DNA of 52,075 nt from a virus: the IMG/VR virus record IMGVR_UViG_3300006900_000001, positions 1-52,075 of that record. One strand, written 5' to 3'. Both the position numbers and the translations under genes were made by a program. The notes under the pieces are model-generated. The model made no database searches and had not been told where the DNA came from. It saw nothing but the letters and a program-made list of their open reading frames with translations. Below are positions 838-43,108 of this stretch, one piece after another (position 1 is the stretch's first letter; each line of letters begins with the position of its first letter).

Positions 838-881
838 TTTCTTTCACCTTTTTGTTTTATATCTGTTCTTTATATGTTCTT

Positions 882-936: not shown

Positions 937-970
937 TGATATTTACAGTAGATATGGGAGGTTATTTACT

Positions 971-1636: not shown

Positions 1637-1697
1637 TATGACTTTCACGAAAAGATAAGACTATTGATAGAGCAATCTGAATCATAAAAGGAAAACC

Positions 1698-2366: not shown

Positions 2367-2378
2367 GGACAAAGTTAT

Positions 2379-3149: not shown

Positions 3150-3169
3150 CATATTTTTTAAAATAGCTC

Positions 3170-3198
3170 TGGACGAGCACAGCTGCTTGCAGTATAAA
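3170..3198 (+). promoter_or_regulatory. Probable promoter of tRNA-Phe
   Basis: TGGACG (3170-3175) and TATAAA (3193-3198) are separated by 17 bp and end 31 bp before the tRNA. The assignment rests on match and position only. Confidence 0.4.
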
Positions 3199-3229
3199 AC
3201 CAGACGTTACCGACTTATCTTTTTTCCGT

Positions 3230-3305
3230 GCTCAGGTAGCTCAGTCGGTAGAGCAAAGGACTGAAAATCCTTGTGTCGCCGGTTCGATCCCGGCCCTGAG
3301 CACCA
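3230..3305 (+). tRNA. tRNA-Phe (anticodon GAA)
   Basis: A full cloverleaf can be drawn: acceptor GCTCAGG/CCTGAGC, D-stem GCTC/GAGC, anticodon stem AAGGA/TCCTT with loop CTGAAAA (GAA at 3263-3265), T-stem GCCGG/CCGGC with loop TTCGATC, and an encoded CCA. The 3' end from the T-loop onward is the prophage attachment core. The integrated copy keeps the gene intact. Confidence 0.97.
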
Positions 3306-3308
3306 TTT
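3287..3308 (+). repeat. attL core (22 bp, 3' end of tRNA-Phe)
   Basis: The 22 bp starting ATCCCGGCCC are identical to 40912-40933 and include the T-loop end, acceptor strand, CCA and TTT. The sequences diverge directly after the repeat. Confidence 0.93.
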
Positions 3309-3429
3309 ACTGAATCCCAGAAGTACACAGAAGTTCCTAGAAGGACGAAAAGCCCGCCATTTATAAGGGCTATTTCGCGCTTGACTGTTCACCGTTGTTC
3401 GTGGAAGTATTCCCAAAGCAAGCCCTATT

Positions 3430-3470
3430 TGGGGGCAAGTATGGGGGCAAGACTTTACACATGGGGGCAA
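3430..3470 (+). promoter_or_regulatory. Integrase arm-type sites, left (3 x TGGGGGCAA)
   Basis: TGGGGGCAA occurs at 3430-3438, 3442-3450 and 3462-3470, with start spacing 12 and 20 bp, between attL and the integrase start. The same word occurs beside attR. This layout is what is expected of integrase arm-binding sites. The last copy ends 1 bp before the int ATG, so Int binding could also repress its own translation or transcription. Confidence 0.6.
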
Positions 3471-3471
3471 A

Positions 3472-4662
3472 ATGGCGTTGACTGACCTTAAATGCAAGGG
3501 CGCGAAGCCTAAGGACAAGGCTTACAAGCTATTCGACGGTATGGGATTATATCTTGAGATAATCCCGAGTGGCAAGAAATTCTGGCGAATCAAATACAGG
3601 TATCTGGGTAAGGAAAAAAGAATATCCCTTGGAGAATACCCCCTGGTCACGTTGCAAGCTGCCAGAGATAAATGCCTGGAGTGTAAAAAACTACTCCAAG
3701 ACAACAAGGATCCCTCTTTAGAAAGGAAAAAAAGCATCCAGGCTATGCAGACAGAGGCCAGCAACTCTTTTCAAAGTATTGCTGACGAGTGGATAGACAA
3801 AAACAAAGTTAGATGGAGTGAAGGTTATCTAAAGAAGGTAAGAAGAAGCTTAGAGATACACGTTTTCCCTTTTATAGGAAAAGACCCGATAAACAATATC
3901 AAGGCTATAGACTTAATGCGTAAATGCTTTTCCAGAATGGAAGAAAAAGGCATTAGCGATTTACTAGACCGAACAAGACAGATATGTAATCAGATATTCA
4001 GGTATGGGATCCAGACTAATAGATGTACCGAAAATCCAGCGGACCAGTTAAGGGGCGCGTTGGCTACACGGCCTCATTCTCATTACAGGAGCATAGATAT
4101 AAATGACCTGTCCGAGTTCCTTAGAAACCTGGAGCGCAACGAGGCGCGGCTCTATGAGCAGACACGCAGGGCAGTATGGTTTTCCATCTATACGTTTTGC
4201 AGACCGGGCGAAATAAGAAAGGCGCAATGGGAACACATTGACTTGCCTAACGCTCGCTGGATAATTCCGGCAAGGTTTATGAAGAAAAGGCGAGATCATG
4301 TCGTCCCTTTATCACAGCAATCCTTAAAGATAATAAAAATGCAGAAAAGTGACCTGTACGGTATAAAAACCCCTTATGTTTTTCCTTCTGTCGTAAGATT
4401 CTCAAACCCCATGAGCGAGAATACAGTCAATCAGGCGATAAAGAGAATTGGCTTCGGTAACAAGATGGTAGCTCACGGCTTTAGGGCATTAGCACGTACG
4501 CAGATTAGGGAAAAATTAAAGTATGATAGCGATATTATAGAAAAACAGCTTGCACACAAATCCTCTGGCCCTTTAGGTGAGGCTTACGATAGAACCGAAT
4601 TTATAGAAGACAGGACGAAAATGATGCAAGAATGGGCCGACTTCGTGGATGGCTTCCTTTAA
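3472..4662 (+). CDS. int: Prophage tyrosine integrase (P4 type)
   Basis: The enzyme performs site-specific recombination between attP and attB in the tRNA-Phe gene. Residues 1-90 are the arm-binding DUF4102-type domain (GMGLYLEIIPSGKKFWRIKY). The middle is the SAM-like core-binding domain (about 97-195). The catalytic domain shows R244 (FCRPGEIR), H335 and R338 (HGFRALAR), H362 (LAHKS) and the nucleophile Y372 (AYDRTEF). Length, 396 aa, is usual. The gene points away from attL into the prophage. All catalytic residues are present, so it should be active. Confidence 0.95.
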   Translation: MALTDLKCKGAKPKDKAYKLFDGMGLYLEIIPSGKKFWRIKYRYLGKEKRISLGEYPLVTLQAARDKCLECKKLLQDNKDPSLERKKSIQAMQTEASNSFQSIADEWIDKNKVRWSEGYLKKVRRSLEIHVFPFIGKDPINNIKAIDLMRKCFSRMEEKGISDLLDRTRQICNQIFRYGIQTNRCTENPADQLRGALATRPHSHYRSIDINDLSEFLRNLERNEARLYEQTRRAVWFSIYTFCRPGEIRKAQWEHIDLPNARWIIPARFMKKRRDHVVPLSQQSLKIIKMQKSDLYGIKTPYVFPSVVRFSNPMSENTVNQAIKRIGFGNKMVAHGFRALARTQIREKLKYDSDIIEKQLAHKSSGPLGEAYDRTEFIEDRTKMMQEWADFVDGFL

Positions 4663-4904
4663 TCCCAGTTATACTGTGGTTCTAAACCCAAGCCCGCTCG
4701 GCACATATCCACCCTGTAGGCCTGACACATCTGATATTCTGCTATGGCCTTATCGGTTTTTTCAGGAGGTAGGCATTGCCTACAATCCTCTCTCGGGTCA
4801 TTTGCTATTATAGTTTTTGTGCAACCAGTCATTAACAGCGTCAACACGACCGCCAACACAATCACTGTCACTAGCAGGAAGAATTTCTTTGACTGCATCA
4901 CCAT
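4659..4904 (-). CDS. Rz1: Rz1-like outer-membrane spanin lipoprotein
   Basis: This 81-aa product has a hydrophobic N-terminus and a lipobox LMTGC with the lipid-modified cysteine at residue 28, so it is predicted to sit in the outer membrane. Its first 107 bases overlap the 3' end of the Rz-like gene in another frame, the usual nested arrangement of two-component spanins. With Rz it would span the periplasm and disrupt the outer membrane after holin and endolysin action. The mature part is cysteine-rich (CRQCLPP) and not proline-rich as in lambda. It ends at the stop of the convergent integrase gene. Confidence 0.8.
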   Translation of the reverse strand: MVMQSKKFFLLVTVIVLAVVLTLLMTGCTKTIIANDPREDCRQCLPPEKTDKAIAEYQMCQAYRVDMCRAGLGLEPQYNWD

Positions 4905-5085
4905 ACCCCTTTTCTATTTCTGATTTCTGTTTGGAAGATTTCTCAGCAAATTCCATTTGCTCTAGCAAGTATTCTGTCTCACGGGCATCGTACCCCTTAC
5001 TGTATTGAAACTTTCCGTAAATAAACACGGAAACCAAGAGGGCAACTATACAGATCCCTCCGACTATCAGTTTGTTACCCACCAT
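4798..5085 (-). CDS. Rz: Rz-like inner-membrane spanin
   Basis: The chosen start (MVGNKLIVGG) has an AAGGAGG ribosome site inside the end of the endolysin gene, better than the longer in-frame start 11 codons upstream. The 95-aa product has one N-terminal membrane segment (about residues 4-20) and a charged helical periplasmic part (EQMEFAEKSSKQKSEIEKGY), as expected of an i-spanin. It overlaps the endolysin gene by 11 bp and the Rz1 gene by 107 bp. Confidence 0.8.
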   Translation of the reverse strand: MVGNKLIVGGICIVALLVSVFIYGKFQYSKGYDARETEYLLEQMEFAEKSSKQKSEIEKGYGDAVKEILPASDSDCVGGRVDAVNDWLHKNYNSK

Positions 5086-5563
5086 ACGCCTCCTTAATAG
5101 CCTGAATAAAGTCCTCAACCCTTACAGGGGTCTGGCGATACCAGAGCGATTTCTTTAGATTGGATATGACCTTCTTGCAATCACCCTTTACCAACAAAGG
5201 ATAGGAGGTTTTAAACACCCTCGACCAATCGCCAAGCTGGAAGTTTACAGAAATGAGAGCTGCTAAAAAATCTGAGTTATACTTACACGGGTCGTCAAAC
5301 TGGCCTAGCTCATAGGCTTGCTTTATGGAGGCTTCTAAGGCCTTTTCAGAATCCTTTTCAAAGGTATCCATTATCCATTTATCAGACACCTTCTCGCCAT
5401 ACTCCAGCTTGTCCTGCGGCAACACAAGATGCCCTATGCCTACCGTCAGTTTTCCCAAGCTATCCTTATATACGTGGTTTCTATAACCCTCCCTCAGCTT
5501 TGCATGGGAGAACCATTTGTCCTTGGCGTTTTCTATTGCGCGCTCTTTAAAGTAGCTTCTCAT
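5075..5563 (-). CDS. Phage endolysin, GH24 lysozyme
   Basis: The enzyme hydrolyses the glycan strand of peptidoglycan during lysis. Counting from the chosen ATG (MRSYFKERA, preceded by AGAGGAAGAA), the T4-lysozyme-type triad is E25, D34 and T40 with the exact E-x8-D-x5-T spacing (REGYRNHVYKDSLGKLTVG), followed by GIGH. Length is 162 aa, close to T4 lysozyme. A longer in-frame start exists 18 codons upstream but would overlap the exonuclease gene and has no better ribosome site. No signal peptide or SAR segment is visible, so it needs the holin. Confidence 0.92.
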   Translation of the reverse strand: MRSYFKERAIENAKDKWFSHAKLREGYRNHVYKDSLGKLTVGIGHLVLPQDKLEYGEKVSDKWIMDTFEKDSEKALEASIKQAYELGQFDDPCKYNSDFLAALISVNFQLGDWSRVFKTSYPLLVKGDCKKVISNLKKSLWYRQTPVRVEDFIQAIKEAYGG

Positions 5564-6366
5564 TTCTTCCTCTTTATGTTTTTGCGGTCGTACCAGTTGT
5601 GACGGCACTCGTTGCATTTAAACCGTTGCTTAGTGCCGGATTTCCTTTGAACAACACCGCGCTTATTAAAGTCGATAGACAGGCAGACGGGGCAGTGTCG
5701 AACCATCTCCCCATCAGGGTAGAACTCACGGGCGTAGACAGACAGATCAGGGTGTGTGTGGTGATATGCCCTTAGTTTCTTGTAGATTTGCGCAGTGACT
5801 ATCACGTCCTGTTTATTGTACTTCCGCATATATCGAAGGGCATCTGGACAGCCCTTTTTGCAGGCATTCCAATCAGGAGAGTTGTCTTTAAGGTCTAGCC
5901 CCAGAAAGTCAGCTATATATGAGAGTTTATTAGACGTGAATTTGAAGTATTTTCGCGCCATCTTGAGGGTGTCTATCTGCACTTTCTTGCCCAAAGGAGG
6001 CAGGCCGTAACTGATAGCGCGCGCATTGAATTTCTTTAGATCAAAGGCGTCTGAGTTATGACCGATTAACACTTCTGCCTGATCTAGGACATGATGCAAT
6101 GCCTTTACAACACCCTCATCATTTAAAGGGTCTTCGCACCTTACTGAAAGAGCATGTGCCTTATCATCATCAAGCCATTTAACGGCCGCTCCTAAAAGTG
6201 TCCAGTCACGCTTTATGTATTTTGGGTCAAAGCGTCTTGTAAAGACTTTGAGGTCATATTGGTTTATCTCTAAAGTGAGGTCTGTACACTCAACATCCCA
6301 TATCAGTATTTTCTTTTTGACATGGGTGTCCATGCCGAGGCGCAAGCCACTGGCTGTTTCAATCAT
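5560..6366 (-). CDS. DEDDy-type 3'-5' exonuclease with C-terminal zinc ribbon
   Basis: The N-terminal RNase H-like fold shows Exo I as WDVECTD (D24, E26), Exo II as GHNSDAFDLKKFNAR (102-116) and Exo III as YNKQD (Y183, D187), like the proofreading domain of family B polymerases. A separate C-terminal zinc ribbon has C225, C228, C251 and C254. No polymerase domain is present. It sits between the holin and endolysin genes, an odd place for a nuclease, and overlaps the endolysin start by 4 bp. AAAGGA lies before the ATG. It may degrade host or competing DNA late in infection, or process packaged ends. Both are inference. Confidence 0.75.
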   Translation of the reverse strand: MIETASGLRLGMDTHVKKKILIWDVECTDLTLEINQYDLKVFTRRFDPKYIKRDWTLLGAAVKWLDDDKAHALSVRCEDPLNDEGVVKALHHVLDQAEVLIGHNSDAFDLKKFNARAISYGLPPLGKKVQIDTLKMARKYFKFTSNKLSYIADFLGLDLKDNSPDWNACKKGCPDALRYMRKYNKQDVIVTAQIYKKLRAYHHTHPDLSVYAREFYPDGEMVRHCPVCLSIDFNKRGVVQRKSGTKQRFKCNECRHNWYDRKNIKRKK

Positions 6367-6375
6367 CTGATTCCT

Positions 6376-6729
6376 TTATTTAGAGAGGCGGGATTTTATA
6401 ATATCAAGGGCGGTATCCACGGCTTTATCGAACCAGCCGCCCAGGAATATCCTATCGGCTGATAGAGCTATAAGTGTTCCGATAACTGTTGCCCACGCGA
6501 AGCCTAAGCCGCCTTCAAAGCTGGCCATGCTGGCCAAACCCCCTATGGGGGCAGAAACGACAAGTGCCTTGAGATAGGTGTGTGCGCGCCGTTCCTCAAC
6601 TGTAAAAAGCGTCTTCGAGATTACTATGGCGCATATCCACATCAGTGAATACACAAGAGGGTTAAAGAGAAGAAGAAAATTCGATGCGATAAAAAAAGAG
6701 GCGTCTACTATGGCTGATTTAAGTGTCAT
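6376..6729 (-). CDS. Putative holin
   Basis: This 117-aa membrane protein has hydrophobic segments at about residues 12-42 and 54-92 and a short basic C-terminus (IIKSRLSK). Small size, membrane segments and position just upstream of the exonuclease, endolysin and spanins make it the best holin candidate. It starts directly after the stop of the DUF4376 gene. I cannot place it in a named holin family from sequence alone. Confidence 0.65.
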   Translation of the reverse strand: MTLKSAIVDASFFIASNFLLLFNPLVYSLMWICAIVISKTLFTVEERRAHTYLKALVVSAPIGGLASMASFEGGLGFAWATVIGTLIALSADRIFLGGWFDKAVDTALDIIKSRLSK

Positions 6730-7218
6730 TTATCCCTCCATTTCCGCGTTAAAGGCTGATTTAACTCCTTCGACATCTGATATACTGCCATCTTCTATCG
6801 ATTGCCTGACGATTCCAGCCGCATCAACACACTTCTGAACATGCTCAGCTATCGCAACGCCTATTGACTTAATCTGCAAGGCAGTAAGCTGGACATCTTC
6901 TCCGTTAAGAACAAAATTAAAGGCCTCCGTATCTGGTAGGCCTTTTAAAATTATCTCGGTGATTTTTCCGTTTATGAGAATTTTATCTCTGTCCCTGGTT
7001 GGTATTTCCATACCCCCCGCGCTTATGCCTCCAGTTTCGACTTGCCATCTGTGGTTATCAAGGACGGACATTAAGTCTAAGTCGGGTGCCGGCAAAATAA
7101 AATCGTCCCCATCCACAACCATGCCACAGACAACGCTGTCATCTACCTCTATAAAACCATCTTGTTTATTCGGTTGTTTTTGAACGACAACCCCATTATT
7201 TACTTTTACGTATGCCAT
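6730..7218 (-). CDS. DUF4376-domain tail-associated protein
   Basis: The central HRWQVETGGISAGGMEIP (about residues 56-73) followed by TRDRDKILINGK is the recognisable DUF4376 core. This domain is common in proteins encoded just after tail-fibre genes and is thought to act in fibre structure or assembly. The 162-aa protein starts with MAYVKVNNGVVVQ, typical of tail-fibre accessory proteins. The gene abuts the fibre gene (stop TAA directly followed by ATG). Confidence 0.75.
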   Translation of the reverse strand: MAYVKVNNGVVVQKQPNKQDGFIEVDDSVVCGMVVDGDDFILPAPDLDLMSVLDNHRWQVETGGISAGGMEIPTRDRDKILINGKITEIILKGLPDTEAFNFVLNGEDVQLTALQIKSIGVAIAEHVQKCVDAAGIVRQSIEDGSISDVEGVKSAFNAEMEG

Positions 7219-8403
7219 TTATCCAACCTTCCATAGTTTTATATCTGTATAAACATCAATACCTGAGCTAAAATCAGAATCACCCTGATAGCTGTTAGCG
7301 ACGCCGCTTGCTATCTGGCTTTGTATTTTTATTTCTGATTCCACTCCAAGTGTAAATCTTCCCTGGAATGCTTTTACGTCAAACCCACCTAAGTTTTTGC
7401 TGGTTAAACCCTGCTGTATATCAGCAGAAGCCGTTATATTATATAATTTATCTCGTGTATTAGCGTATGATGATGATGCAGCGCCATTTGCTGTTACACA
7501 TATAAACTCGTATGATCCGGCGGGAATTGTAATTACTCCACTTGTTAATGGTGAAGCGCCATAAACGGAAGTATCATTATAAACTACAGTGTTAGGCACT
7601 CTATCAGTCCAACTTGTTGTGAGGGCGTTTCCGGGAACTCCCGCTGTCTGTTGCTCTTGAATATGCAACAAAGGCGCACCGAAAGCATCCCCCGGCTGAA
7701 CAGCCGTATCAGCCTTCTCCCCCTGTTCTGCTGTGGCGGTATTATTCGTAGCGATTACCACAGCCATTTCCAGCTCGTCATCGTACTGGATAATTGCGAA
7801 TTTATTATCACTATCAAGCGATAAATCAGATCCAGATCCAGTGATAATATTTCCGGTGTTGTGCTTTAAAACAACAGTTCTGTCAGTATTGGCGGGTCGT
7901 ATCACAAGTATCTGCCCATCTGCCATGCCGTTTATTGTATCAAGATCGTCTGTTGCCGCGTCTGATTCCGTGTCGATAGTGTGGCTAACCCCGGTTACAG
8001 TTACAGCCCCGGAGGATATTGTTAACTCCCCCTTGTCTTTAAAAGCAACTTTACTGCTGAATGTATTGTCGCCTGTAAATTCCTGGCTTGTTCTTAGGGT
8101 GGCCATTACAGCGGATATGTTGACTTGCCTTACGTTTCTTGTCCCGGCTCCCCAGTCAACGGCGGCACCTGCGTTGGAGCTCGCCAGCACCTCATCCCGA
8201 CTTAATATGTCAGGATCTCCGGCTGTTACTGTTCCTATACCTGACTCCCAGTCCTCCCCGTCATCTATGTGGTAGTAAGTCTGGTTTGTATCACCTATTC
8301 CAGCAACGAATGATTGAAACCCGGTTGGTGGCCCTGCGAGAAGTATATCTCCCGTTCCTTGTGTAGTAGAAGTCTCAAATACTCTATCTGCAATCACTAT
8401 CAT
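7219..8403 (-). CDS. Tail fibre / receptor-binding protein candidate
   Basis: The N-terminus (VFETSTTQGTGDILLAGPPT, about 8-27) is the conserved virion-attaching part seen in many siphovirus fibre proteins. The middle is beta-rich with serine/threonine repeats and a motif VIRPANTDRTVVLKHNTGN typical of trimeric fibre shafts. The C-terminal 130 residues are likely the receptor-binding or trimerising head. It overlaps the upstream gene by an ATGA. No catalytic depolymerase motif is seen. Confidence 0.75.
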   Translation of the reverse strand: MIVIADRVFETSTTQGTGDILLAGPPTGFQSFVAGIGDTNQTYYHIDDGEDWESGIGTVTAGDPDILSRDEVLASSNAGAAVDWGAGTRNVRQVNISAVMATLRTSQEFTGDNTFSSKVAFKDKGELTISSGAVTVTGVSHTIDTESDAATDDLDTINGMADGQILVIRPANTDRTVVLKHNTGNIITGSGSDLSLDSDNKFAIIQYDDELEMAVVIATNNTATAEQGEKADTAVQPGDAFGAPLLHIQEQQTAGVPGNALTTSWTDRVPNTVVYNDTSVYGASPLTSGVITIPAGSYEFICVTANGAASSSYANTRDKLYNITASADIQQGLTSKNLGGFDVKAFQGRFTLGVESEIKIQSQIASGVANSYQGDSDFSSGIDVYTDIKLWKVG

Positions 8404-9152
8404 GCGGGTATCTCCTCAATCTGGTATCGTTTTTTGTAAATCTCATGGTAAGGCAGCTCTATCGGTTCAAGCTGCGTAATAAGTCCGTAAATGTGTGATC
8501 TCTGGATATTTTCCGAGGTTGCGTCAAACACATAAAGAACATCGCGTGACACGCCTCTGCGCTTGTCGAAGTCATACAAAGAATTGGCCTCTGCCCTGCT
8601 CAGGAATCCGAAAGAGAAGTCTACTGTTTTAAAGGGTTGTCGCCTTAGGGGGTTAGGTTCACCGGACATCGTTCTTGTGACTCTGGAGTTGTCTTTCAAG
8701 CCCTCCTTAAAACCATATTCAGCGTTCTTCTCAGGAATAAAGGCGTTAGAGATGTAAAGCCTGCCCGCCTCGAAATAGTCGCCTGAATGGGATATTTCTA
8801 ATTTCCAATAGCGATAGGTTTCATCCAAAAGGTGGATAAATAGGTTTTTGTCTTCTCCAATGTCATCCCCTGATATGAGGTTAAGGCTTCCGCTTGTATA
8901 ATCCGTGCAGTCAGAAGTAGTTCCGGCCTTTACGGTTACACTACCGGTGCCATTATGGCCTATGAGCGCAACGCAGTTCACGTCCTTGGCCGCAGACAGA
9001 TCTATGTTTATCTCTGCCTCTGATGATGTCCTGTACTTTACCTTTAAGGAGCGTTTTTTTAGGTTCCCCACATTCATGTCACCCATGCCTTGCGTTCCTG
9101 TAATTACCGCATTATCCGATAACTCAGGGCTTGCCAGTAAGACATTCGTCAT
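8400..9152 (-). CDS. Distal tail structural protein
   Basis: The 250-aa product looks like a beta-sandwich protein. Residues about 30-130 resemble a discoidin/carbohydrate-binding-like fold (LKVKYRTSSEAEINIDLSAA, ... YRYWKLEIS). The start is chosen at the ATG that overlaps the upstream stop as ATGA, with GGAG eight bases upstream. Another ATG lies two codons earlier. Placed between a hub-like protein and the fibre gene, it is probably a baseplate or minor tail part. Exact role unknown. Confidence 0.65.
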   Translation of the reverse strand: MTNVLLASPELSDNAVITGTQGMGDMNVGNLKKRSLKVKYRTSSEAEINIDLSAAKDVNCVALIGHNGTGSVTVKAGTTSDCTDYTSGSLNLISGDDIGEDKNLFIHLLDETYRYWKLEISHSGDYFEAGRLYISNAFIPEKNAEYGFKEGLKDNSRVTRTMSGEPNPLRRQPFKTVDFSFGFLSRAEANSLYDFDKRRGVSRDVLYVFDATSENIQRSHIYGLITQLEPIELPYHEIYKKRYQIEEIPA

Positions 9153-10816
9153 CCCCATAACTCCAATCTGGTTTCATTTGTTTCTGCATCTTCTGAGATG
9201 GATGTGATAAAAAAGGGCTTGCCGTTTTCCAGACCAGCCCTTGAGGTTTTCAGTGTTATTGTGTCACCTATAAAAACCCTGAATAATAGGTTGCTCACAG
9301 TGACTTTTATGATCTGCCTTTGTGCTCCATATATGCGCTGCATCCTCTCCGAAATTCCTTCGGCCTCTGACAGGGATGAAAGATATGTACTAAAGGCTCT
9401 TTTTACAGAGGCATTTGTTTTTCTCCGTATTGAGCGGTCTTCTATAACAAGCTTGCGGAAGTCTTCTCTGGTGAACTCCCTAAGTTCGGAAGCTGCGGCC
9501 AGTTCGTCATCATTTTGAGAAGTCCAGTTCTTCTTAAAGCCTATCTCTATTTGCCAAGCAGGCGAGATATTCTTATCAACCTCAAAGCTTCCGTCAGAAA
9601 TCATGTCTTCATTTATCTCAAGAACGGGTAATGAAGGGGCATCTATTACACCCAGAGAAAGAAGCCCGGAGCGCGTGAATACCCAGAAGCCATGAACTGG
9701 ATTCACAAGGTCATCAAGTATCCTTCTGGCATCGGTTTCTGAGTTAATGAAAAGCCCACTGTTTACCGGAACAGCCTCATCAAATCTGTTAAATGCACCA
9801 CCGTCTATTTCAGAGGTTGATAGCGATCTGAAACCCAGTCTTTTTGTCACGATGTTGCGAATAATCGCTCCTATTCGTGCGCTATAACCGTCCTCATTAT
9901 CGCCTTTTATGTCTGCCGTTATTCGTCCTGATGGGTTTGTTCCCAGCTTGATATAGCCGCCGGATAATTGCGTTTTATACTGTCCTGCACTTACAGTAGC
10001 ACTTGTAATGTCCTCAACGTCCCCGCCGCTTGTAAGCTCTACACCCTTATCATACACGGCCATGACTTCTTCCATCGACCCATCGTGAACTTGATAAATA
10101 AGGTTTTCGCTATCCACTAAAACAGCCGATACATTATAGCACTCACCAAAGGCTAAAGGCTTGATCGCGTTTCTTAAATCGTCTCCGCCCTCAAGGCCAC
10201 CAGTTCCCAGATAAAGACTCTGCTTAAACTCGGTTTCAAGAAGACTCGATTTGTCAGAGATATTTATGATTATCTCTTCTTCATTGAACTCCGGCTCAGT
10301 TGCCAGACCCTCGAATATTTTCTCAAACTGGGAATAAGAAAAGTCACGCCCGCCTGCGTAGACTGATATGTTACGCCCACCCCAGTAGTAGCTTGTAAGC
10401 CTATCAAGTTCCCCGTCAGCATTTATAAGCCTGATTGCTCCGAATGAAGGAAGCCCGCCCCTAAATTCTTCCCCACTCAGTATAGATACATCGAACTGAA
10501 AAGGGTTGGAGGTAAGAGGCTGATAAGATGTATTAGGCAGACTATCCTCCGGTTCTGTAAAGAAACCAACATCAGATATATATATTGTCTCTTCACCGCC
10601 CCTGTAAGAAAACCCAAATTCCCCAGTGCAGGTAAGTCCTGTCGGTGCGGGGGAGGGAATAAAGTTTTCCTTCTTATCATCATAAGGGCTAAGCTCAATA
10701 AGATAGACAAGCTCAATGTCAGGCTCTTTTAATAGCTCCTTAAATGCACTCGTAACAGCAAGGCTTAATCCTTCTGGAATCTCACCTGTGCTGAGCTCTC
10801 CTGTTGATCTAAGCAT
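9149..10816 (-). CDS. Large tail-tip / hub-like protein
   Basis: This 555-aa protein starts eight bases before the tape-measure stop. Its beta-rich N-terminal half contains GGRNISVYAGGRDFSYSQFE and FEGLATEPEFNEEEIIINIS, patterns found in phage tail-tip proteins that attach the distal tail. The C-terminal third has helical segments (LREFTREDFRKLVIEDRSIR) and ends in short beta strands. Position directly after the tape measure fits a distal tail or hub protein. No enzymatic motif is seen. Confidence 0.7.
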   Translation of the reverse strand: MLRSTGELSTGEIPEGLSLAVTSAFKELLKEPDIELVYLIELSPYDDKKENFIPSPAPTGLTCTGEFGFSYRGGEETIYISDVGFFTEPEDSLPNTSYQPLTSNPFQFDVSILSGEEFRGGLPSFGAIRLINADGELDRLTSYYWGGRNISVYAGGRDFSYSQFEKIFEGLATEPEFNEEEIIINISDKSSLLETEFKQSLYLGTGGLEGGDDLRNAIKPLAFGECYNVSAVLVDSENLIYQVHDGSMEEVMAVYDKGVELTSGGDVEDITSATVSAGQYKTQLSGGYIKLGTNPSGRITADIKGDNEDGYSARIGAIIRNIVTKRLGFRSLSTSEIDGGAFNRFDEAVPVNSGLFINSETDARRILDDLVNPVHGFWVFTRSGLLSLGVIDAPSLPVLEINEDMISDGSFEVDKNISPAWQIEIGFKKNWTSQNDDELAAASELREFTREDFRKLVIEDRSIRRKTNASVKRAFSTYLSSLSEAEGISERMQRIYGAQRQIIKVTVSNLLFRVFIGDTITLKTSRAGLENGKPFFITSISEDAETNETRLELWG

Positions 10817-13800
10817 TCATCTTCACCACTGCATTACCAAAACGCTCATTGGCTTTTCTTAGCCTTGTGTTTTCCTCTCTTAGCGCTTTCATTTCAGTAA
10901 GTAGTTGCTGCATAATAGAGGTCTGTTCTGCGTTCGATACTGCTATGTCACGGGAAATGTCGTCAGTTAATCCTCCGGGTGCGCCAAGCGTGTCAGCAAT
11001 TCCCGTAACTGTCTGCCTTACATAGGCCTCCAAGCTGGCATACGCCTCGGATGAGGCGAATATATCCCTACCCAAACCTAGAAGCGTCGATGCCTGATTA
11101 GCTACTGCATTTATATTTGTATAATCGCCTGAATTAATACCCTGAATGCTTTTATCGAACTCGGAACGGGCTAGGCTAAGCCTTTCCACATTGCTTAATG
11201 AGGATCCGCTTGAAAGAGCCTGGCTGTCCAGAAAGTCCTGCAATCCTCCCAAGGCGGAATTGACTATATTCTTTCTCTGCGCCTCGTAACCCTCTGTTAT
11301 CTTGTCCAGAGGGAGACCAAGAGCTACTGCTCTGTCTTTTAATGCACTAAACTGGTCATCAAGAGCCGATAGAGCCTGTTTTAAAGGGTTTACTGTTTCG
11401 ACTTGTTCACCTAGTATACTCTGAATTAAAGCAACATCAGATAAGGCGTTTTCTAAATTGCTGTTCATTGAAAATGCTTTTGTTATAGCACTTTCCAATT
11501 CGTCTGTTATGCCTGAATAGTCAGCATTTGAAAGAACCCTCAGCACACCATATTCCAAGGCTTTGTCCGCATCACTAAAGCCACGAACGCCGTTATTCCT
11601 TAAATCACGGTCTCTGCTGCTAAAACTATCAACACCACTAACGCCAACACGGATTCTTCCCCCGTCCCTCTTACCGCTTGTGGAAAATCTCAGTGTACCC
11701 GCTGAGGCAACATCCAACCCCAATGTGGAAATGGTTTCGTTCAGCACATCCATTGCAGTGCTTTGTAATGATTTAAAGGCTTTTCTTTGACTGCTGCTCG
11801 CCTCGTCATGGGAAAGATTACCCTTGGTGAAAGCACCATTTCTAAAGTCCACATCTGTTCCTGAGAACTGTGATGGGGTCGAGCCCCCGAATAGGCCACC
11901 GAGGGCAGACCCCAAGAAAGAACCTATTCCTGCCCCAACACCGGGTATTGGTATCAATGCCTGACCAGCCAAAGCCCCCAAGGTGCTTGCCCCGGCGTTA
12001 ACAAACATGTTGCTGTTACCAAGACCGAGCAGGTTGGCAGCGAGCCCACCTATAGCGCCCCCTGCAAGAGTGCTTCCAAGAGTTGCTGATCCAAAAATAG
12101 AACCCGGTGCGGCTGGGCCATATACGCCTGATGGAAGAGCCTGACCAAATCCTAGAGACTGACCAATCCCCCCGGGGAACATTCCCCCAAGGGTAATAGG
12201 ATTGCCGCCACTAAATATGTTAGATATACTCCCCAGATTAGATAGACTGAATCCTCCACCGGAGCCACCTGAAATAATAGATCCCAGCCCTGCGGCGTTC
12301 GCGCCAGAAGATGACATACCCACGCCAGCGACTGACGCCCCGATACTCAACATAATTGGCCTTAATGTCGCCTGATATGCTATCTCTGCAAGAAAGTCTG
12401 TAAAGCTGGCTTTCGCTCCCTCGATAAACCTTTTGAAACCGCCTTCACTCTCTTTAAAAGCGTCCTTAAAAGCCCCGGCAAGGTCGCGCTCTATATCTGA
12501 CGTTAAATCATCAATCGCACTTGGAATTTCGTCATTCAGATTGTCATTGAGCTTTCCGGCTTCTTTGTTCACGTCCCCCATGCCACTCTTTATGTCTTCG
12601 ATAAGGTCTGTGACCTCATTTTCATTGGAGCTCTTTCCGGAACCTGTATCAGAGGTCGATATAGATGTGTTTAATTCCTCTAAGTCGGCGCGCGTTCTGT
12701 TTCTTACCCTATTTAAAAAATCAGATGAGCCGTTTATTATATCCCGGCCCCGAGCTAGGTTTATTTCGGCAAAACTCATACCCGCAAGCCGTTTAACATC
12801 ATCAGAAAGCGGGATATCCGTAGTCATCGGTATTTTGTTATAGAGTTGGACAGCCTGCCCATATACGGATTTAATTGTATCTAATGCGACTAAGAAAGGA
12901 CTACTGAGTATACTCGCTATACCCTTAAAGCCCTCAATAATAATATTGCGGAAATTAAAGAAGACTTGCGCGCCATTCTTTCCCAAGAATTCCGTTTCTT
13001 TTAAGGCGTTACCAATTTCGTCCTTGAATAGGACAAGGGCGGCGGTACCGCTAGAAATAGCAGTCACTAGCAGTCCTATGGGATTGGAGGCTACGGCAAC
13101 TGTCAAGCCTTTAACCGCAGTTGTTATAGAGCGAACTGCTCCTGCAGCTCCACCAAGTGAAGCTATAACAGACGCTGCGCCCAAGCCTAGTAGACCAGCA
13201 GCAGCTACTGCACTCCACTTTACAATAGAGGTTAAGTTCTCAGTTATAGTTGATAGGGCGGGGGCTAGCTTGGTAACAGCGAGATCTCCAACCTCTAACA
13301 TCTGAACCTTTACAGCCGCAAGAAATGAATTTAGCTTAAAGCCTGGGCTGTCGGCCATTTTATTAAAAGCCTCTTCTGTCGCGCCTGCCTTTACCCCCAT
13401 ATCTTCAAGGATTTCATAGAAAGATTTTCCAGCTTCACCGCTCAGAGCCATGATGGGAACTAGAGCCTCGACCCCGCCAAATAGCTGAGCGAGTTTTTCT
13501 GTGCTGCCTCCTGTTTTTTCTGTAAGATCTGATAAGAATTCCGCAAGCCCCTTAGCCTCAAGCCCTGTTGCTGTAAAATCAATTCCAAGCTGTTCGGCCA
13601 TCTTGCTGGCTTCACTTGTCGGCTTGGCTACCGCCGCCAATACAGCCCTTACCCCTGTGATAGACTCTTGTGTCGATATACCGCCTTTTGTCAGAGCAGA
13701 CACAGCAGCGGTCAGCTCGTCAAACTCAACGCCTACTGACGCGGCAATAGGGGCAACCTTACCCAGCCCAGCAGAAAGCTCTCCAATTGTCGTCTTACCA

Positions 13801-14330
13801 GCTTTCATGGCTATAAAAAGGCTGTCTGAAACCGCAGCGGCACTTTCTACTCTATCGCCATAAGCATTAAGAACGGATGTTAAGCCGTCAGCCGCAATCG
13901 ATATGTCGGTAACACCACCGATGGCCAGCTTGTTAGCTGCCGTAAGGGTTTCTGTGGCCTGAGCCGCGCTACTCGCCCCTGCTGATATAATTTGATAAAG
14001 CGCCTTCGATTGCTGTACAGGTGTAGAGGCAAACTGCACAGCCTGTTGCTTTGCTGCCTTTGTCAGGGCTTCCATTTCACCCTTGGTGTCACCTAAAAGG
14101 GTTGATAGCTCTGACATTGCAGTGCTGAACTCTATGGAAGCGCGCGTTGCGGATCTGAGAAAGACAAGTGCGGCACTTACCCCACCGATTGCGACTAATG
14201 CTTTTCTTAGCCGGTCTGCCGAATTGGTGGCTCTGTCACCAGAATTAGCGATATCATCTAGGTCACGCTTAATAATGCGCGCACCGTTGCCATCAGACCT
14301 AACAGCAATAAATATTTCGGCATCACTCAT
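10809..14330 (-). CDS. Tape measure protein (TP901 family)
   Basis: The 1173-aa protein sets tail length. Residues about 55-330 match the TP901 tape-measure core (EFSTAMSELSTLLGDTKGEM, then helical repeats ending GGVEALVPIMALSGEAGKSF). Hydrophobic segments lie at about 373-440 and glycine-rich stretches at about 670-830. The C-terminus is helical coiled coil (LLTEMKALREENTRLRKANE). By the known rule of roughly 0.15 nm per residue the tail would be about 170-180 nm. It follows the frameshifted chaperone pair, as in lambda. Confidence 0.93.
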   Translation of the reverse strand: MSDAEIFIAVRSDGNGARIIKRDLDDIANSGDRATNSADRLRKALVAIGGVSAALVFLRSATRASIEFSTAMSELSTLLGDTKGEMEALTKAAKQQAVQFASTPVQQSKALYQIISAGASSAAQATETLTAANKLAIGGVTDISIAADGLTSVLNAYGDRVESAAAVSDSLFIAMKAGKTTIGELSAGLGKVAPIAASVGVEFDELTAAVSALTKGGISTQESITGVRAVLAAVAKPTSEASKMAEQLGIDFTATGLEAKGLAEFLSDLTEKTGGSTEKLAQLFGGVEALVPIMALSGEAGKSFYEILEDMGVKAGATEEAFNKMADSPGFKLNSFLAAVKVQMLEVGDLAVTKLAPALSTITENLTSIVKWSAVAAAGLLGLGAASVIASLGGAAGAVRSITTAVKGLTVAVASNPIGLLVTAISSGTAALVLFKDEIGNALKETEFLGKNGAQVFFNFRNIIIEGFKGIASILSSPFLVALDTIKSVYGQAVQLYNKIPMTTDIPLSDDVKRLAGMSFAEINLARGRDIINGSSDFLNRVRNRTRADLEELNTSISTSDTGSGKSSNENEVTDLIEDIKSGMGDVNKEAGKLNDNLNDEIPSAIDDLTSDIERDLAGAFKDAFKESEGGFKRFIEGAKASFTDFLAEIAYQATLRPIMLSIGASVAGVGMSSSGANAAGLGSIISGGSGGGFSLSNLGSISNIFSGGNPITLGGMFPGGIGQSLGFGQALPSGVYGPAAPGSIFGSATLGSTLAGGAIGGLAANLLGLGNSNMFVNAGASTLGALAGQALIPIPGVGAGIGSFLGSALGGLFGGSTPSQFSGTDVDFRNGAFTKGNLSHDEASSSQRKAFKSLQSTAMDVLNETISTLGLDVASAGTLRFSTSGKRDGGRIRVGVSGVDSFSSRDRDLRNNGVRGFSDADKALEYGVLRVLSNADYSGITDELESAITKAFSMNSNLENALSDVALIQSILGEQVETVNPLKQALSALDDQFSALKDRAVALGLPLDKITEGYEAQRKNIVNSALGGLQDFLDSQALSSGSSLSNVERLSLARSEFDKSIQGINSGDYTNINAVANQASTLLGLGRDIFASSEAYASLEAYVRQTVTGIADTLGAPGGLTDDISRDIAVSNAEQTSIMQQLLTEMKALREENTRLRKANERFGNAVVKMNA

Positions 14331-16080: not shown

Positions 16081-16103
16081 AAAAAAAGCCCCATCGCGGG
16101 GCT
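16081..16103 (-). terminator. Rho-independent terminator before tail tube gene
   Basis: The minus strand reads GCCCC-gcgat-GGGGC followed by seven T. It lies between the tail-terminator and tail-tube genes inside the late block. Confidence 0.8.
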
Positions 16104-17964: not shown

Positions 17965-17991
17965 AAGAAAAAGGCGGGTGTTACCCCGCCC
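17965..17991 (-). terminator. Rho-independent terminator after major capsid gene
   Basis: The minus strand reads GGCGGGG-taaca-CCCGCC followed by TTTTTCTTT, 10 bp after the capsid stop. It would reduce transcription past the capsid gene. Confidence 0.8.
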
Positions 17992-18001
17992 TTCTCCTGT
18001 G

Positions 18002-18979
18002 TTACTGTGCTGCGTTGCCAATCGCAATAACACCAGCAGTATGCTTGATGTCAGTTGCAACCTTATCCCAGTTAGAACCTGTGGCCAACTCTGCATCAGT
18101 AGGTGATTTATTGCCATTGGCTGTATCCCAAGCATAGCCTTTAAGGCCAAGACCGAAGGTGTAATCAACTTGCATTGTGGTTTCGATACGCTGATTACCG
18201 TTTTTAGTCTCAACATTTGTAATAACGTCATTACCGTCATGCACAATCGCGGCAGATTCAGCCAAGCCTAGTACTTTTTGTGCGTCCAGGTCAGTGTCAT
18301 AGTCAGCTTGGAACAGTGCAGGGGCATCAGTTACGATTACCGCCTTACCAAGAATGTCCACGACAGTCACATTACCAGCACGGAACAATTCCTGACCGTT
18401 GGCGAGGTTTTGGCCGATAAACTTGTGGTAAACCTGACCAGTCATTACATCTGCAACGATGTTACCGGACATGTCACCAAACTTGGCGTGTGCATTGTTA
18501 ACCGCTGCGTATGACAGACCCGCACTAGCAGACACGTCATTTGTCGCATCAGCCTGATTGCTGATAGCTGCAACGAGTGCAGCAATTGCAGTATTCAACT
18601 GATCTTTCATCAAAGCCTCAGCAAAGTTACGAGATGCAACCTCAATACCTTCTGCCGTTGGTTTGCGTAACCATGTAAGCTGAGAAGGCTCGAACTTGAT
18701 CGGACCGAAGCCACCAGCAACTTTTACTGAGTTGTGTTGTAGCTGTGTAAGATCTGTTGCTGACGCGCTTGAGTTTGTACCATAGCGATCAACACGACGC
18801 TGAGCTGAATGCAAAGCGGCAAAGAAAGACTCTTGAAAGAAATCTCCATCGAAGCCCTCTGTAGTCAGGCGAATTGCACCGTTAGAGGATTGGTTAAATT
18901 TATCTACCATCTGAGCCAGTGTCTCAATTGTGGCAGGCATGATGTATTCGTTAAATACCTTCATATCTGAAAGTGCCAT
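18002..18979 (-). CDS. Major capsid protein
   Basis: The 325-aa protein has the look of a HK97-fold major capsid protein: helical N-terminus (VFNEYIMPATIETLAQMVDK), a central spine-helix region with ASRNFAEALMKDQLNTAIAA, and LFRAGNVTVVDILGKAVIVT (about 200-219). It is encoded directly after a scaffold gene and before connector genes. GGAAAACATATT lies before the ATG. Strong terminators or strong ribosome sites around it fit high expression. Confidence 0.85.
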   Translation of the reverse strand: MALSDMKVFNEYIMPATIETLAQMVDKFNQSSNGAIRLTTEGFDGDFFQESFFAALHSAQRRVDRYGTNSSASATDLTQLQHNSVKVAGGFGPIKFEPSQLTWLRKPTAEGIEVASRNFAEALMKDQLNTAIAALVAAISNQADATNDVSASAGLSYAAVNNAHAKFGDMSGNIVADVMTGQVYHKFIGQNLANGQELFRAGNVTVVDILGKAVIVTDAPALFQADYDTDLDAQKVLGLAESAAIVHDGNDVITNVETKNGNQRIETTMQVDYTFGLGLKGYAWDTANGNKSPTDAELATGSNWDKVATDIKHTAGVIAIGNAAQ

Positions 18980-18991: not shown

Positions 18992-19660
18992 TTATTTTGA
19001 ATTGGATTGAAGTTCTGGATATTTAGAAGCGATTGCCGCAGCCCTTTGACTGCGATCTCCCCCCATGTCTCCTTTTGCACCGGACGCCTTGCCTCCAGTG
19101 TTCGAGCCATTGGCTCCACCGCCCCCGTTATCAGGAGCTGCTTTAAAGTGTTTCCCTTGGTCGCCTTGCGTCCATTCAGAAACGAAGTCTGTTAGTGGTT
19201 TTCCGTCGAATTGAGCTACTGTCTGCCCGTCAACGTCCGTGATCTCTGGTTTGTGTCTTGACTGAATAAGCGCCTTGGCTGCGTCCATGTATTGTGGAGC
19301 GACTCCTGCCTTGCTCAGCGCGTCTGTAAGGCCGTTATCAACCAAAAGAGAATGAAGTTTGCTGTCTTTATCAGCAATCTTGGCCTGATACTCAGACTCA
19401 ATCTTTTTCATCTTCTCTTCATATGTCTTGGCAATCTTTTCGCTGTCACCGGATTTCAATGCAGCTTCTTCTTCTGCCTGTCTTTTTGCCTCAGCCTCGG
19501 CTTCAAGCTTTTGTTCCAACGCGCTCTTGTTATCTTTTTCTTTCTTGAGGTTTCCCAGAAGCTCCTCGTTCTTGGCTTTCAGTCCTGATGTGGCTTCTTC
19601 TACAGCCGCCTGGATTGCTGCCTTTGCTTCGTCTGTTTTAAGTAGTTCTGCTATTTCCAT
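18992..19660 (-). CDS. Capsid scaffold protein
   Basis: The start is set at MEIAELLKTDEAK. The longer in-frame extension upstream is only read-through of the tRNA-Trp and terminator sequences. The 222-aa protein has a long charged coiled coil (about 25-115, NEELLGNLKKEKDNKSALEQ), then VDNGLTDALSKAGVAPQYMD and a glycine-rich C-terminus. This is the family pattern of phage scaffold proteins, encoded just before the capsid gene. No protease motif is seen. Confidence 0.82.
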   Translation of the reverse strand: MEIAELLKTDEAKAAIQAAVEEATSGLKAKNEELLGNLKKEKDNKSALEQKLEAEAEAKRQAEEEAALKSGDSEKIAKTYEEKMKKIESEYQAKIADKDSKLHSLLVDNGLTDALSKAGVAPQYMDAAKALIQSRHKPEITDVDGQTVAQFDGKPLTDFVSEWTQGDQGKHFKAAPDNGGGGANGSNTGGKASGAKGDMGGDRSQRAAAIASKYPELQSNSK

Positions 19661-19714
19661 GAGCCTTGCTCTCCCCTTGGGATTGGTTGGTGTTGCGCCT
19701 GCCTTGCAGGCATT

Positions 19715-19735
19715 AAAAAAGCCCCTTTGCGGGGC
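19715..19735 (-). terminator. Terminator directly 3' of tRNA-Trp
   Basis: The minus strand reads GCCCC-gcaaa-GGGGC followed by six T. It starts one base after the tRNA CCA. Confidence 0.85.
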
Positions 19736-19810
19736 TGGCGTATGCGTATGGATTTGAACCATAACCTGCAGTTTTGGAGACTGCCGTGCTGCCATTAACA
19801 CTACACACAC
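19736..19810 (-). tRNA. Phage-encoded tRNA-Trp (anticodon CCA)
   Basis: The minus strand folds into a cloverleaf: acceptor GTGTGTG/CGCATAC (with G-T wobble pairs), D-stem GTGT/GCAC, anticodon stem GCAGT/ACTGC with loop CTCCAAA, T-stem TATGG/CCATA with loop TTCAAAT, discriminator G and encoded CCA. The variable loop has four bases, one less than usual. It lies between the minor-head and scaffold genes, enclosed by terminators on both sides. Confidence 0.88.
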
Positions 19811-19844
19811 AAAAAAGCCCACTATGGGTTTCCCCATATCGGGC
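19811..19844 (-). terminator. Terminator directly 5' of tRNA-Trp
   Basis: The minus strand has a two-part stem, GCCC and TATGGG arms around GAAA, followed by six T that end at the first tRNA base. It may stop transcription or serve as a processing signal. Confidence 0.75.
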
Positions 19845-19871
19845 AATAAAAAACCCGCCGTGAAGCGGGTT
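19845..19871 (-). terminator. Terminator after the 50-aa gene
   Basis: The minus strand reads AACCCGC-ttcacg-GCGGGTT followed by a T-rich tract (TTTTTTATT). Confidence 0.8.
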
Positions 19872-19890
19872 AATGCGATTTATTTATTTC

Positions 19891-20043
19891 TCAGTTAGGC
19901 CAGATATACTTACCCTGACAGTTAAAATAACCATGCTTTGGCGGCTCTTTCATTATGGGTAGCTTTATAACTTCACCTTTGAAGAGTCCTTGCTTTCTTT
20001 TGTCTATAAATTCAGGCATACCTTTGGCTTTTTTCATTCCCAT
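19891..20043 (-). CDS. Small basic hypothetical protein, 50 aa
   Basis: The product begins MGMKKAKGMPEFIDKRKQGL and ends in PPKHGYFNCQGKYIWPN. No ribosome site is seen; a TATAAT box lies immediately before the ATG (20044-20049), so the mRNA could be leaderless or the match could be chance. Two terminators follow. It is part of a small cassette between head genes. Function unknown. Confidence 0.5.
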   Translation of the reverse strand: MGMKKAKGMPEFIDKRKQGLFKGEVIKLPIMKEPPKHGYFNCQGKYIWPN

Positions 20044-20052
20044 ATTATACCC
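20044..20052 (-). promoter_or_regulatory. AGGGTATAAT-type box before the 50-aa gene
   Basis: A perfect TATAAT preceded by GGG is repeated at 20317-20325 before the neighbouring gene. No good -35 is seen at 16-18 bp. Confidence 0.35.
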
Positions 20053-20076
20053 TAATCAAAGGCTTTTTCCCAGACG

Positions 20077-20310
20077 TTACTTCTTATTCTCGTCGGCAAT
20101 CTCAACGAAATACATATATCCATCACGGAGCAGGAATTGCTCGTCTAGGATGCGCTCTTTTGGCACATTACCTAACCCATAAAAATCAATGTCGCCTATT
20201 TCTGCGTATCCGCTATCACTATGAAAGTAGACATCAGACATAGTAAAATCGCCATTTAAAGCAACGAAGTATTTTCCCTTTGCGGGCTGAGCGTCTTTTA
20301 GCTTTTTCAT
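20077..20310 (-). CDS. Hypothetical phage protein, 77 aa
   Basis: The product begins MKKLKDAQPAKGKYFVALNG and is acidic and beta-rich (SDVYFHSDSGYAEIGDIDFY). I do not recognise it. It starts 14 bp after the minor-head gene, with TATAAT between the two genes and no clear Shine-Dalgarno. It is the first gene of the cassette ending with tRNA-Trp. Confidence 0.55.
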   Translation of the reverse strand: MKKLKDAQPAKGKYFVALNGDFTMSDVYFHSDSGYAEIGDIDFYGLGNVPKERILDEQFLLRDGYMYFVEIADENKK

Positions 20311-20316
20311 ATTTGT

Positions 20317-20325
20317 ATTATACCC
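20317..20325 (-). promoter_or_regulatory. AGGGTATAAT-type box before the 77-aa gene
   Basis: A perfect TATAAT with the same GGG before it as at 20044-20052. At 16 bp upstream GGAACA matches TTGACA in three of six positions only. Confidence 0.35.
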
Positions 20326-21374
20326 TACTTAAAGACCCTGTTCCACACTTCGCTGTCTCTTTTCTTCAGCTCATCCAAGGTATAGGATTTGCCAAGATTG
20401 TCCTGAAAGCGATCTATAGGCAGGCCACCTTCGCGGAACAGCTTAGCCTTTTTTACTCCTAAGACTTCCTCTTGAACGCCTTTAGGCTGCTTTCTTAGCC
20501 AATCGCCATAGGATGTGTCTTCCGGTACTGGGCCGCCCGAACTTGCCCTTGTTCCTTTGGTTTTAAACTCACCGAGGTAAGCTATCGTTCTTGAGCGGCA
20601 GTTAAAATGTGCCGGGATAGCTGGTGCTTTTCCTACCTCGTATATCTTACCGTCCCTCTGGCGACATACAGGGCTTGTGCGTCCATCTAGCGTGGAAACC
20701 CACTTCACACCCTTGATAATATCCGCATTAACCATCCAGACATCATTTGCCGCTCTATCTGCAACATGAGCCGTGGCGGTTCTCACTACTGTCTGCAAGT
20801 CACGCCTTGAGGCTTCCAATAATCCGTCCTTATACTGACGGGCTCTTGTTCCCTTTATACGCCTGACAATCTGATCTGTGGTTTCACCCTCGACTATTCC
20901 TATCCTGACAGCATCACTCACCTTTTGAGCCGCACTGGTCTCAAGTCCTGAGTACCACTCCCTAAGCAATCGCCCTCTAAAGGGTTGAGAAGTTGCCGCC
21001 GCTTCGAGCTGTGTGACACTCGGCCTGACTAAATCAATCTCGGCTGGGGCTTCTATTATTTTGGCCTGAAAATCTGACTCATAAACGGCAAAATCGAATA
21101 ACTCTTCTTTCGTCTCGTTATATAACACCGCATAAACAGCCCTACGGTCTTCCCTGATAGCTTTTTGCAGTGCCTTGAGGCGTTCTGTTGTATCTTTCCC
21201 GAGATCAAACCCACGGTCTTCTATCTTGGCTAACCTTGAGGCCAGCTTCTCGATTAAATCGCCATCCGCTTTATTTAAAAGCCTTAATATCTTATTGGCT
21301 GTTGAGGTCTTGTATCTTTCCAGCCAGACCATATGACGAATGCCACGGTCTTGAATTTCCTCATTGATCGACAT
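20325..21374 (-). CDS. Minor head protein (Mu gpF / SPP1 gp7 type)
   Basis: The protein is a minor capsid component carried into the prohead with the portal. The diagnostic C-terminal block is VKWVSTLDGRTSPVCRQRDG followed by PAIPAHFNCRSRTI (about residues 223-262) with its conserved cysteines and histidine. N-terminal 180 residues are helical. Length 349 aa. The gene overlaps the portal gene by 14 bp, as is usual. Confidence 0.88.
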   Translation of the reverse strand: MSINEEIQDRGIRHMVWLERYKTSTANKILRLLNKADGDLIEKLASRLAKIEDRGFDLGKDTTERLKALQKAIREDRRAVYAVLYNETKEELFDFAVYESDFQAKIIEAPAEIDLVRPSVTQLEAAATSQPFRGRLLREWYSGLETSAAQKVSDAVRIGIVEGETTDQIVRRIKGTRARQYKDGLLEASRRDLQTVVRTATAHVADRAANDVWMVNADIIKGVKWVSTLDGRTSPVCRQRDGKIYEVGKAPAIPAHFNCRSRTIAYLGEFKTKGTRASSGGPVPEDTSYGDWLRKQPKGVQEEVLGVKKAKLFREGGLPIDRFQDNLGKSYTLDELKKRDSEVWNRVFK

Positions 21375-25378: not shown

Positions 25379-26095
25379 CTAAATTATTTCAATTCCCCTT
25401 GCTACGCCCGGAACCTTTGAAATATATCCGCGTTGAACCAGGCCGTCTACTAGACCCTGTGCCATTGATACAGATGATAAACCAAGTGCTTTCATTATTT
25501 CCTTGTAGGTCGGGGCTTTCTCGTTTTTGCTGTAATAATCGTGGATATATTCCAAGGCATCGCTCTGGCGGTTTGTCGGGGGTATTCTCGGCCTCTCTTT
25601 CTTAGTCTGGCCCCTTAGCTCCCTCCATGTCTCCAAGGCCATATCAACTAGCCTTTTTAGCGTTCCGCGGGACATAAACTGTTCCTTTGCTAGTATCTCG
25701 TCAATTTTTTTACCATCGACTATCTGGATAACGATGTCACGGGCTTGTGGTGAGTTACGTTGCATAAAGATGTTCCAATCATTAAACGCCTTGACCAGAT
25801 CCATGTGATACTCGGTAAAGCCTGTTCCGTTTCCCTTTATACGCTCTGCAAAGCGCATGGTTTTAACGTCCAATGCCCCTGACAGAATCCGCTTGGCCTT
25901 TTCTATCTCCATCAACGCATCATCATGGCCTCGCTCAAGAATATCATGAAGCTGTTGCGTTGATAACCGTGTGACCCCGACGACTTCTTCACGGCCTCCA
26001 TCCCGATACGTCCTGATCTGTAAAGGATCACCCTTCTGCCCATACCCTTGTATCTCTCCCGGCTTGATAAACTGGCTTGTGTCTATGTCACTCAT
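25379..26095 (-). CDS. Putative late regulator with C-terminal LexA-type winged helix
   Basis: Residues about 172-238 (PPTNRQSDALEYIHDYYSKN, ... APTYKEIMKALGLSS, ... LVQRGYISKVPGVARGIEII) match the LexA DNA-binding domain, here at the C-terminus and without a peptidase. The N-terminal 160 residues are unfamiliar and include a helical part (IDEILAKEQFMSRGTLKRLV) that may be a second HTH. It is the last gene of the early leftward block, the place where late activators or antiterminators often lie. That role is inference. The start overlaps the upstream stop (TAATG). Confidence 0.65.
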   Translation of the reverse strand: MSDIDTSQFIKPGEIQGYGQKGDPLQIRTYRDGGREEVVGVTRLSTQQLHDILERGHDDALMEIEKAKRILSGALDVKTMRFAERIKGNGTGFTEYHMDLVKAFNDWNIFMQRNSPQARDIVIQIVDGKKIDEILAKEQFMSRGTLKRLVDMALETWRELRGQTKKERPRIPPTNRQSDALEYIHDYYSKNEKAPTYKEIMKALGLSSVSMAQGLVDGLVQRGYISKVPGVARGIEII

Positions 26096-43105: not shown

Positions 43106-43108
43106 TTA

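Follow-up and report, generated by a model that had tools for sequence, protein, structure and literature searches.

Two small open reading frames and a terminator-flanked tRNA-Trp gene as accessory cargo at a recurrent junction of a prophage head operon

Introduction

How a phage makes a tRNA whose gene is closed in by terminators, in the midst of the head genes, is the question raised by a prophage in IMG/VR record IMGVR_UViG_3300006900_000001, of which we analysed a stretch of 52,075 nucleotides (positions 1 to 52,075; hereafter, the window). An earlier note, made from the sequence alone, had described two small unrecognised genes, three terminators and a tRNA-Trp gene between the minor head and scaffold genes, and had proposed that they form an independent transcription unit gained within the late block.

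Results

The prophage and its attachment site

The prophage in the window is complete and integrated, and is bounded by a 22-bp direct repeat, which lies within the 3' end of a tRNA-Phe gene that remains intact.

3287-40933, no strand assigned: prophage
3287-3308 and 40912-40933: att core, identical 22-mers

The unoccupied site is present in a genome of the same species (G492), where window positions 394-3308 correspond to positions 1-2915 of L154 (100% identity) and the right flank, 40912-52075, corresponds to positions 2894-14057 (99.96%); these two host-flank matches overlap by 22 bp, which gives the position of the att core. The phage is temperate and probably of siphovirus type, and its host probably belongs to the Alphaproteobacteria, with which the NAD kinase subfamily is consistent; the host's order, represented by 142 genomes, was reached from a class search around a Bartonella genome. 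On the host side, the gene adjoining attR (41120-43105) codes for a protein of 661 aa that contains calcium-binding repeats of the RTX type. A candidate late regulator, a protein of 238 aa with a DNA-binding domain of the LexA type (25379-26095), is encoded immediately upstream of the terminase genes.

Because a temperate phage is integrated here in a tRNA gene, one could envision tRNA-dependent lysogeny, in which the phage tRNA substitutes for a host tRNA broken by integration. However, the attachment site leaves tRNA-Phe intact, and the isotype carried by the phage is Trp rather than Phe; the features that define such lysogeny (PMC10865867) are thus absent, and we regard this explanation as refuted.

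Layout of the head block

On the minus strand, the order is minor head, ORF77, ORF50, T1, T2, tRNA-Trp, T3 and scaffold. All of the elements previously described between the minor head and scaffold genes (two small ORFs, three terminators, the tRNA-Trp gene and a TATAAT box before each ORF) are present, and the cargo has a GC content of 41%, compared with 46% in the late block.

20325-21374, minus strand: minor head gene (Mu F-like), left neighbour of the cargo; PF04233 2.8e-13, phrog_241 1.2e-134
20077-20310, minus strand: ORF77, small protein of 77 aa, no homologue found; from the ORF list
19891-20043, minus strand: ORF50, small protein of 50 aa; from the ORF list
19846-19871, minus strand: terminator T1 (hairpin 19871-19852), AACCCGCTTCACGGCGGGTT followed by TTTTAT, -11.6 kcal/mol
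19811-19844, minus strand: T2, a terminator-like hairpin (19844-19817), GCCCGATATGGGGAAACCCATAGTGGGC followed by TTTTTT, -17.5 kcal/mol
19736-19810, minus strand: tRNA-Trp, anticodon CCA, 75 nt, CCA encoded, discriminator G; ARAGORN, Rfam, structure
19714-19736, minus strand: terminator T3 (hairpin 19736-19720), AGCCCCGCAAAGGGGCT followed by TTTTTT, -11.5 kcal/mol
19661-19711, minus strand: scaffold leader with small hairpins GCCTGC-AAG-GCAGGC (19711-19697), TCCC-AAG-GGGA (19682-19672) and GAGC-AAG-GCTC (19671-19661)
18992-19660, minus strand: scaffold gene, right neighbour of the cargo; phrog_206 1.3e-28
18002-18979, minus strand: major capsid protein (Gp13-like, PF20036), 6.9e-123
17970-17993, minus strand: terminator T4, directly after the capsid gene
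16087-16103, minus strand: terminator T5, before the major tail gene, a near-copy of T3

A T run follows each of the T1, T2 and T3 hairpins, and two further intra-operon terminators (17993-17970 and 16103-16087) lie inside the prophage beyond the cargo. The T-tract of T2 ends at the base before position 1 of the tRNA, and the first A of the T3 stem is the final A of its CCA, so the terminators do abut the tRNA at both ends, as had been remarked. The search for promoter-like sites on the minus strand near the tRNA found none; both T1 and T2 stand upstream, and no room is left for a promoter after T2. The proposal that the tRNA belongs to an independent transcription unit runs against this anatomy: with no recognisable promoter of its own and two terminators ahead of it, the tRNA most likely comes solely from late transcription that reads through them.

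Identity and lineage of the tRNA

The tRNA-Trp call on the minus strand was borne out by ARAGORN (19736-19810) and by the Rfam covariance model RF00005 (55.8 bits against a cut-off of 29), and in the structure check all four stems of the cloverleaf are paired. The gene shares 53 of 75 positions (71%) with the tRNA-Trp of Pectobacterium phage DU_PP_V, and 44 of 76 (58%) with the tRNA-Trp gene of the host; judged by these identities, it is of phage and not of host lineage. An exact-pattern search of viral contigs returned no match to it. The anticodon loop (CTCCAAA) is identical in the prophage and host tRNAs, and the D stems differ, with U11-A24 in the prophage tRNA and in that of DU_PP_V as compared to C11-G24 in the host.

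The Escherichia coli Hirsh suppressor likewise has U11-A24 in its D stem, and the presence of this pair in both phage tRNAs but not in the host's would fit a tRNA-Trp that reads UGA. However, U11-A24 is found in many normal tRNAs, and read-through of the UGA stops of the late genes would add only 0-22 residues, with nothing domain-like among them, so we find this scarcely credible. Nor is the tRNA likely to raise Trp decoding for the late proteins. It is placed for synthesis with the late mRNA, and TerL and portal have a moderate Trp content, but UGG is not enriched in the late genes (10.6 per 1000, below the 12.5 of the host flanks), scaffold and capsid contain one and three Trp residues, respectively, and a tRNA-Trp gene is already present in the host; codon supply is thus a very unlikely explanation.

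Comparison with related loci

Relatives were gathered by their capsid protein, and 96 loci were scanned for tRNAs. No tRNA was found in the head block of any of them (0/96), the sole tRNA across all loci being a tRNA-Met in L035, 5 kb away. Minor head and scaffold lie ∼90 nt or less apart in 18 of the 44 relatives in which this gap could be measured, and the others hold various small genes; in Oceanospirillum phage GJ44, for example, the gap is 82 nt, and in Pseudomonas phage PS-1 two additional ORFs occupy this position.

Two empty sites, L165 and L010, frame the comparison. The best of them, L165, is a prophage from the host's order (G420:C1) in which the minor head stop is followed by ∼27 nt, a terminator, a hairpin leader and the scaffold gene. 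Its order of elements matches that of the window from terL and portal through minor head, terminator, hairpin leader and scaffold to the tail genes, with 73%, 60% and 74% identity in terL, minor head and the tail-completion gene, respectively, but L165 lacks ORF77, ORF50 and the tRNA, and its capsid protein is a different one, with no detectable match to that of the window. In L010 the relationship is reversed (capsid 80% identical, terL 35%). From these identities, the minor head-scaffold junction is a point at which the mosaicism changes. The claim that the cargo was gained within the late block is thus upheld by the absence of head-block tRNAs from all 96 loci and by the clean empty site in L165; the comparison with related prophages gave no sign of the cassette being conserved as a whole. 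A second phage with the same cargo was not found, and the insertion may have occurred in one block or in steps.

The same junction recurs as a site of other cargo (L009, L011, L013-L016, L047-L057 and L166), with ORFs of up to ∼2 kb; these include a GIY-YIG-like nuclease ORF (L014) and zinc-finger-like ORFs (L013 and L016). A related prophage contig (L024, 10718-10779) carries an Rfam int-alpA RNA (RF02996, 46.2 bits).

Terminators and leader hairpins of the head module

Terminators are not peculiar to the window. One lies between the minor head and capsid genes in 30 of 63 relatives, usually just ahead of scaffold and sometimes as a tandem pair, and one lies within 150 nt after the capsid gene in 27 of 88; terminators thus recur in this head module as boundaries around scaffold and capsid. 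Because terminators before scaffold are common in relatives that lack this cargo, at least one of T1-T3 is older than the cargo, an element of the boundary itself, and the notion of a single independent cassette does not hold. T1 has matches of 90-97% at the same junction in two host-order prophages (L162 and L163), but also elsewhere in genomes of the order, and T1-like terminators occur 3' of ordinary host genes (L159 and L160); the identity of T1 is thus no proof of homology by itself, and the match rests more on position. T1, T3 and T5 all run into A(T/A)TGCC, and the tails of T1 and T3 are consistent with entry of the tRNA between two copies of such a tail.

Hairpins comparable to those of the scaffold leader were found in 52 of 64 relatives (shuffles: mean 22.8, maximum 31). 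Scaffold leaders of this capsid family contain one to three tiny GC hairpins with stems of 4-6 and loops of 3-5, often with the Shine-Dalgarno sequence in the loop or the 3' arm; the stem sequences vary between relatives and the pairing is retained. None of the ten loci tested had a match to an Rfam family in these hairpins.

The two ORFs and the duplicated TATAAT block

Each ORF is preceded by one copy of a 46-nt block.

20303-20348, minus strand: repeat copy 1, the minor head end, AGGGTATAATA and the ORF77 start, with TATAAT at 20322-20317; 46-nt alignment, pattern match
20030-20075, minus strand: repeat copy 2, V-W-E-K-A-F-D-stop, then GGGTATAATA and the ORF50 start, with TATAAT at 20049-20044

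The two copies align with a score of 40, whereas 2000 shuffles reached at most 32 and 4987 random prophage pairs at most 28; the duplication exceeds chance. The V-W-E-K-A-F-D end of copy 2 resembles the ends of minor head proteins in the window (VWNRVFK), L165 (IWNKTFK) and L010 (IWQKTFGR), although a C-terminal profile of all the relatives' minor head proteins did not single out the repeat before ORF50; as measured against near relatives, copy 2 is suggestive of a minor head C-terminus. This pattern suggests that the ORFs arrived by exchange at the point where the minor head gene ends.

The two small genes proved as unrecognisable as had been reported: neither the 77-aa nor the 50-aa product has a match in PHROGs, Pfam, phages or the 142 host-order genomes, nor has ORF50 one among plasmids, and the AlphaFold model of ORF77 is uninformative (pLDDT 45). 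ORF50 shares an identical 14-residue C-terminal motif, KHGYFNCQGKYIWP (19897-19938), with a small protein of an otherwise unrelated viral contig (L001, 5001-5096), the two proteins being 60% identical over 35 aa. We also considered, and rejected, a Trp operon leader (RF00513) over the end of ORF50 and T1: the score was 20.7 bits against a gathering cut-off of 41, only one Trp codon is present, no terminator follows the ORF50 relative in L001, and inspection by eye revealed no convincing alternative stem.

The TATAAT boxes lie before each ORF, at 20322-20317 and 20049-20044, as had been described, with the correction that the -35 hexamers are poor at both. Each box ends 6 nt before an ATG (that of ORF77 and the second of ORF50), a leaderless geometry. 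Leaderless mRNAs account for 9.6% of coding sequences in Caulobacter (PMC4117421), and leaderless starts typically have TANNNT ∼12 nt upstream (PMC3160421). The 6-nt spacing predicts leaderless mRNAs for both ORFs, and both may have promoters of their own. Promoter-like sites just behind the minor head stop are commoner in relatives than in shuffles (present in 14 of 49 relatives at p<0.05 and in 20 at p<0.1), and none was found in the clean empty sites L165, L010 and L021.

In lambdoid phages, a promoter, gene and terminator inserted together between phage genes are called a moron, and the cargo shares much with these elements: it adds genes among the conserved head genes that relatives do not have, its GC content is lower, and it has TATAAT boxes before the ORFs and a terminator after. 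If it were a true moron, a self-contained unit, the TATAAT promoters would transcribe ORF77, ORF50 and, by leaking through T1 and T2, the tRNA in the lysogen. In favour are the two near-identical TATAAT blocks, the enrichment of promoter-like sites behind the minor head stop together with their absence from clean empty sites, and the GC difference (41% versus 46%). However, the -35 boxes are poor, T1 and T2 stand between these promoters and the tRNA, and a terminator at the junction is widespread in loci that lack this cargo, so the unit is not self-contained; unlike lambdoid morons, moreover, the window has a tRNA lacking a recognisable promoter and at least one terminator that belongs to the older junction. 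We consider a true moron unlikely.

Discussion

The reading we prefer, to which we assign a probability of roughly two in three as a whole, is that the window carries accessory cargo at a recurrent junction, with the tRNA-Trp produced by late read-through, silent in the lysogen and likely serving as a back-up. An older terminator and hairpin leader before scaffold would have marked the junction. ORF77 and ORF50 would have been added upstream of this terminator-leader, each behind a copy of the minor head 3' end carrying TATAAT, and the phage-lineage tRNA would have entered inside the terminator region so as to lie now between T1/T2 and T3, although the order of these events may have been different. 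During lytic growth, late RNA polymerase coming from the terminase side would get past T1 and T2, either through antitermination or because termination is leaky, and RNase P together with 3' nucleases would release the tRNA from the late transcript. The tRNA would then appear late in lytic growth and be silent in the lysogen, while ORF77 and ORF50 may each be transcribed from a leaderless promoter. Because any transcript running from head to tail must also cross T3, T4 and T5, the simplest single assumption is late read-through or antitermination. Against this stands that the prophage yielded no identifiable antiterminator gene, so that passage through at least five terminators is inferred.

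The arrangement is of a kind already known: accessory genes, a late-operon tRNA among them, carried at a site of recurrent insertion. In Salmonella phage L, which is P22-like, tRNA genes are transcribed with the late operon, and terminators are predicted within this one-promoter operon, one of them after the procapsid module, with a role stated to be unknown (PMC8022706). The window is like phage L in having a tRNA gene in the late operon together with intra-operon terminators, but the phage L tRNAs lie near the start of the late mRNA, before the lysis genes, rather than between minor head and scaffold, and they are not reported to be flanked by terminators on both sides as the tRNA-Trp is here.

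The likely benefit of the tRNA would be as a back-up tRNA-Trp, unlike that of the host, at times when the host tRNA is damaged or scarce, possibly through a tRNA-depleting defence. The tRNA-Tyr of T5 counters retron-Eco7 (PMC11555353), and mycobacteriophage tRNAs, with an anticodon loop changed relative to that of the host tRNA, counter tRNA-depleting defence (PMC10264068). Like these, the tRNA in the window is of phage lineage, has diverged from the host gene and has no reason in codon use; unlike them, it is a single tRNA-Trp with a host-identical anticodon loop and no strong promoter of its own. Because its anticodon loop equals that of the host, the version of anti-defence that depends on a changed loop does not apply. 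PADLOC found no convincing defence gene among ten accessory prophage genes. One could go further and suppose that the tRNA is boxed in by terminators so that only antiterminated late polymerase makes this host-unlike tRNA-Trp, at the time when defence may destroy the host's own; we hold such terminator gating to be quite improbable.

The cargo offers a well-bounded example of how accessory genes are loaded into a head operon, with an empty site in the host's bacterial order, a duplicated junction and older framing terminators. It bears on two questions left open in the literature: why intrinsic terminators occur in late operons with a single promoter, and why single tRNAs that are not matched to codon use are found in temperate phages.
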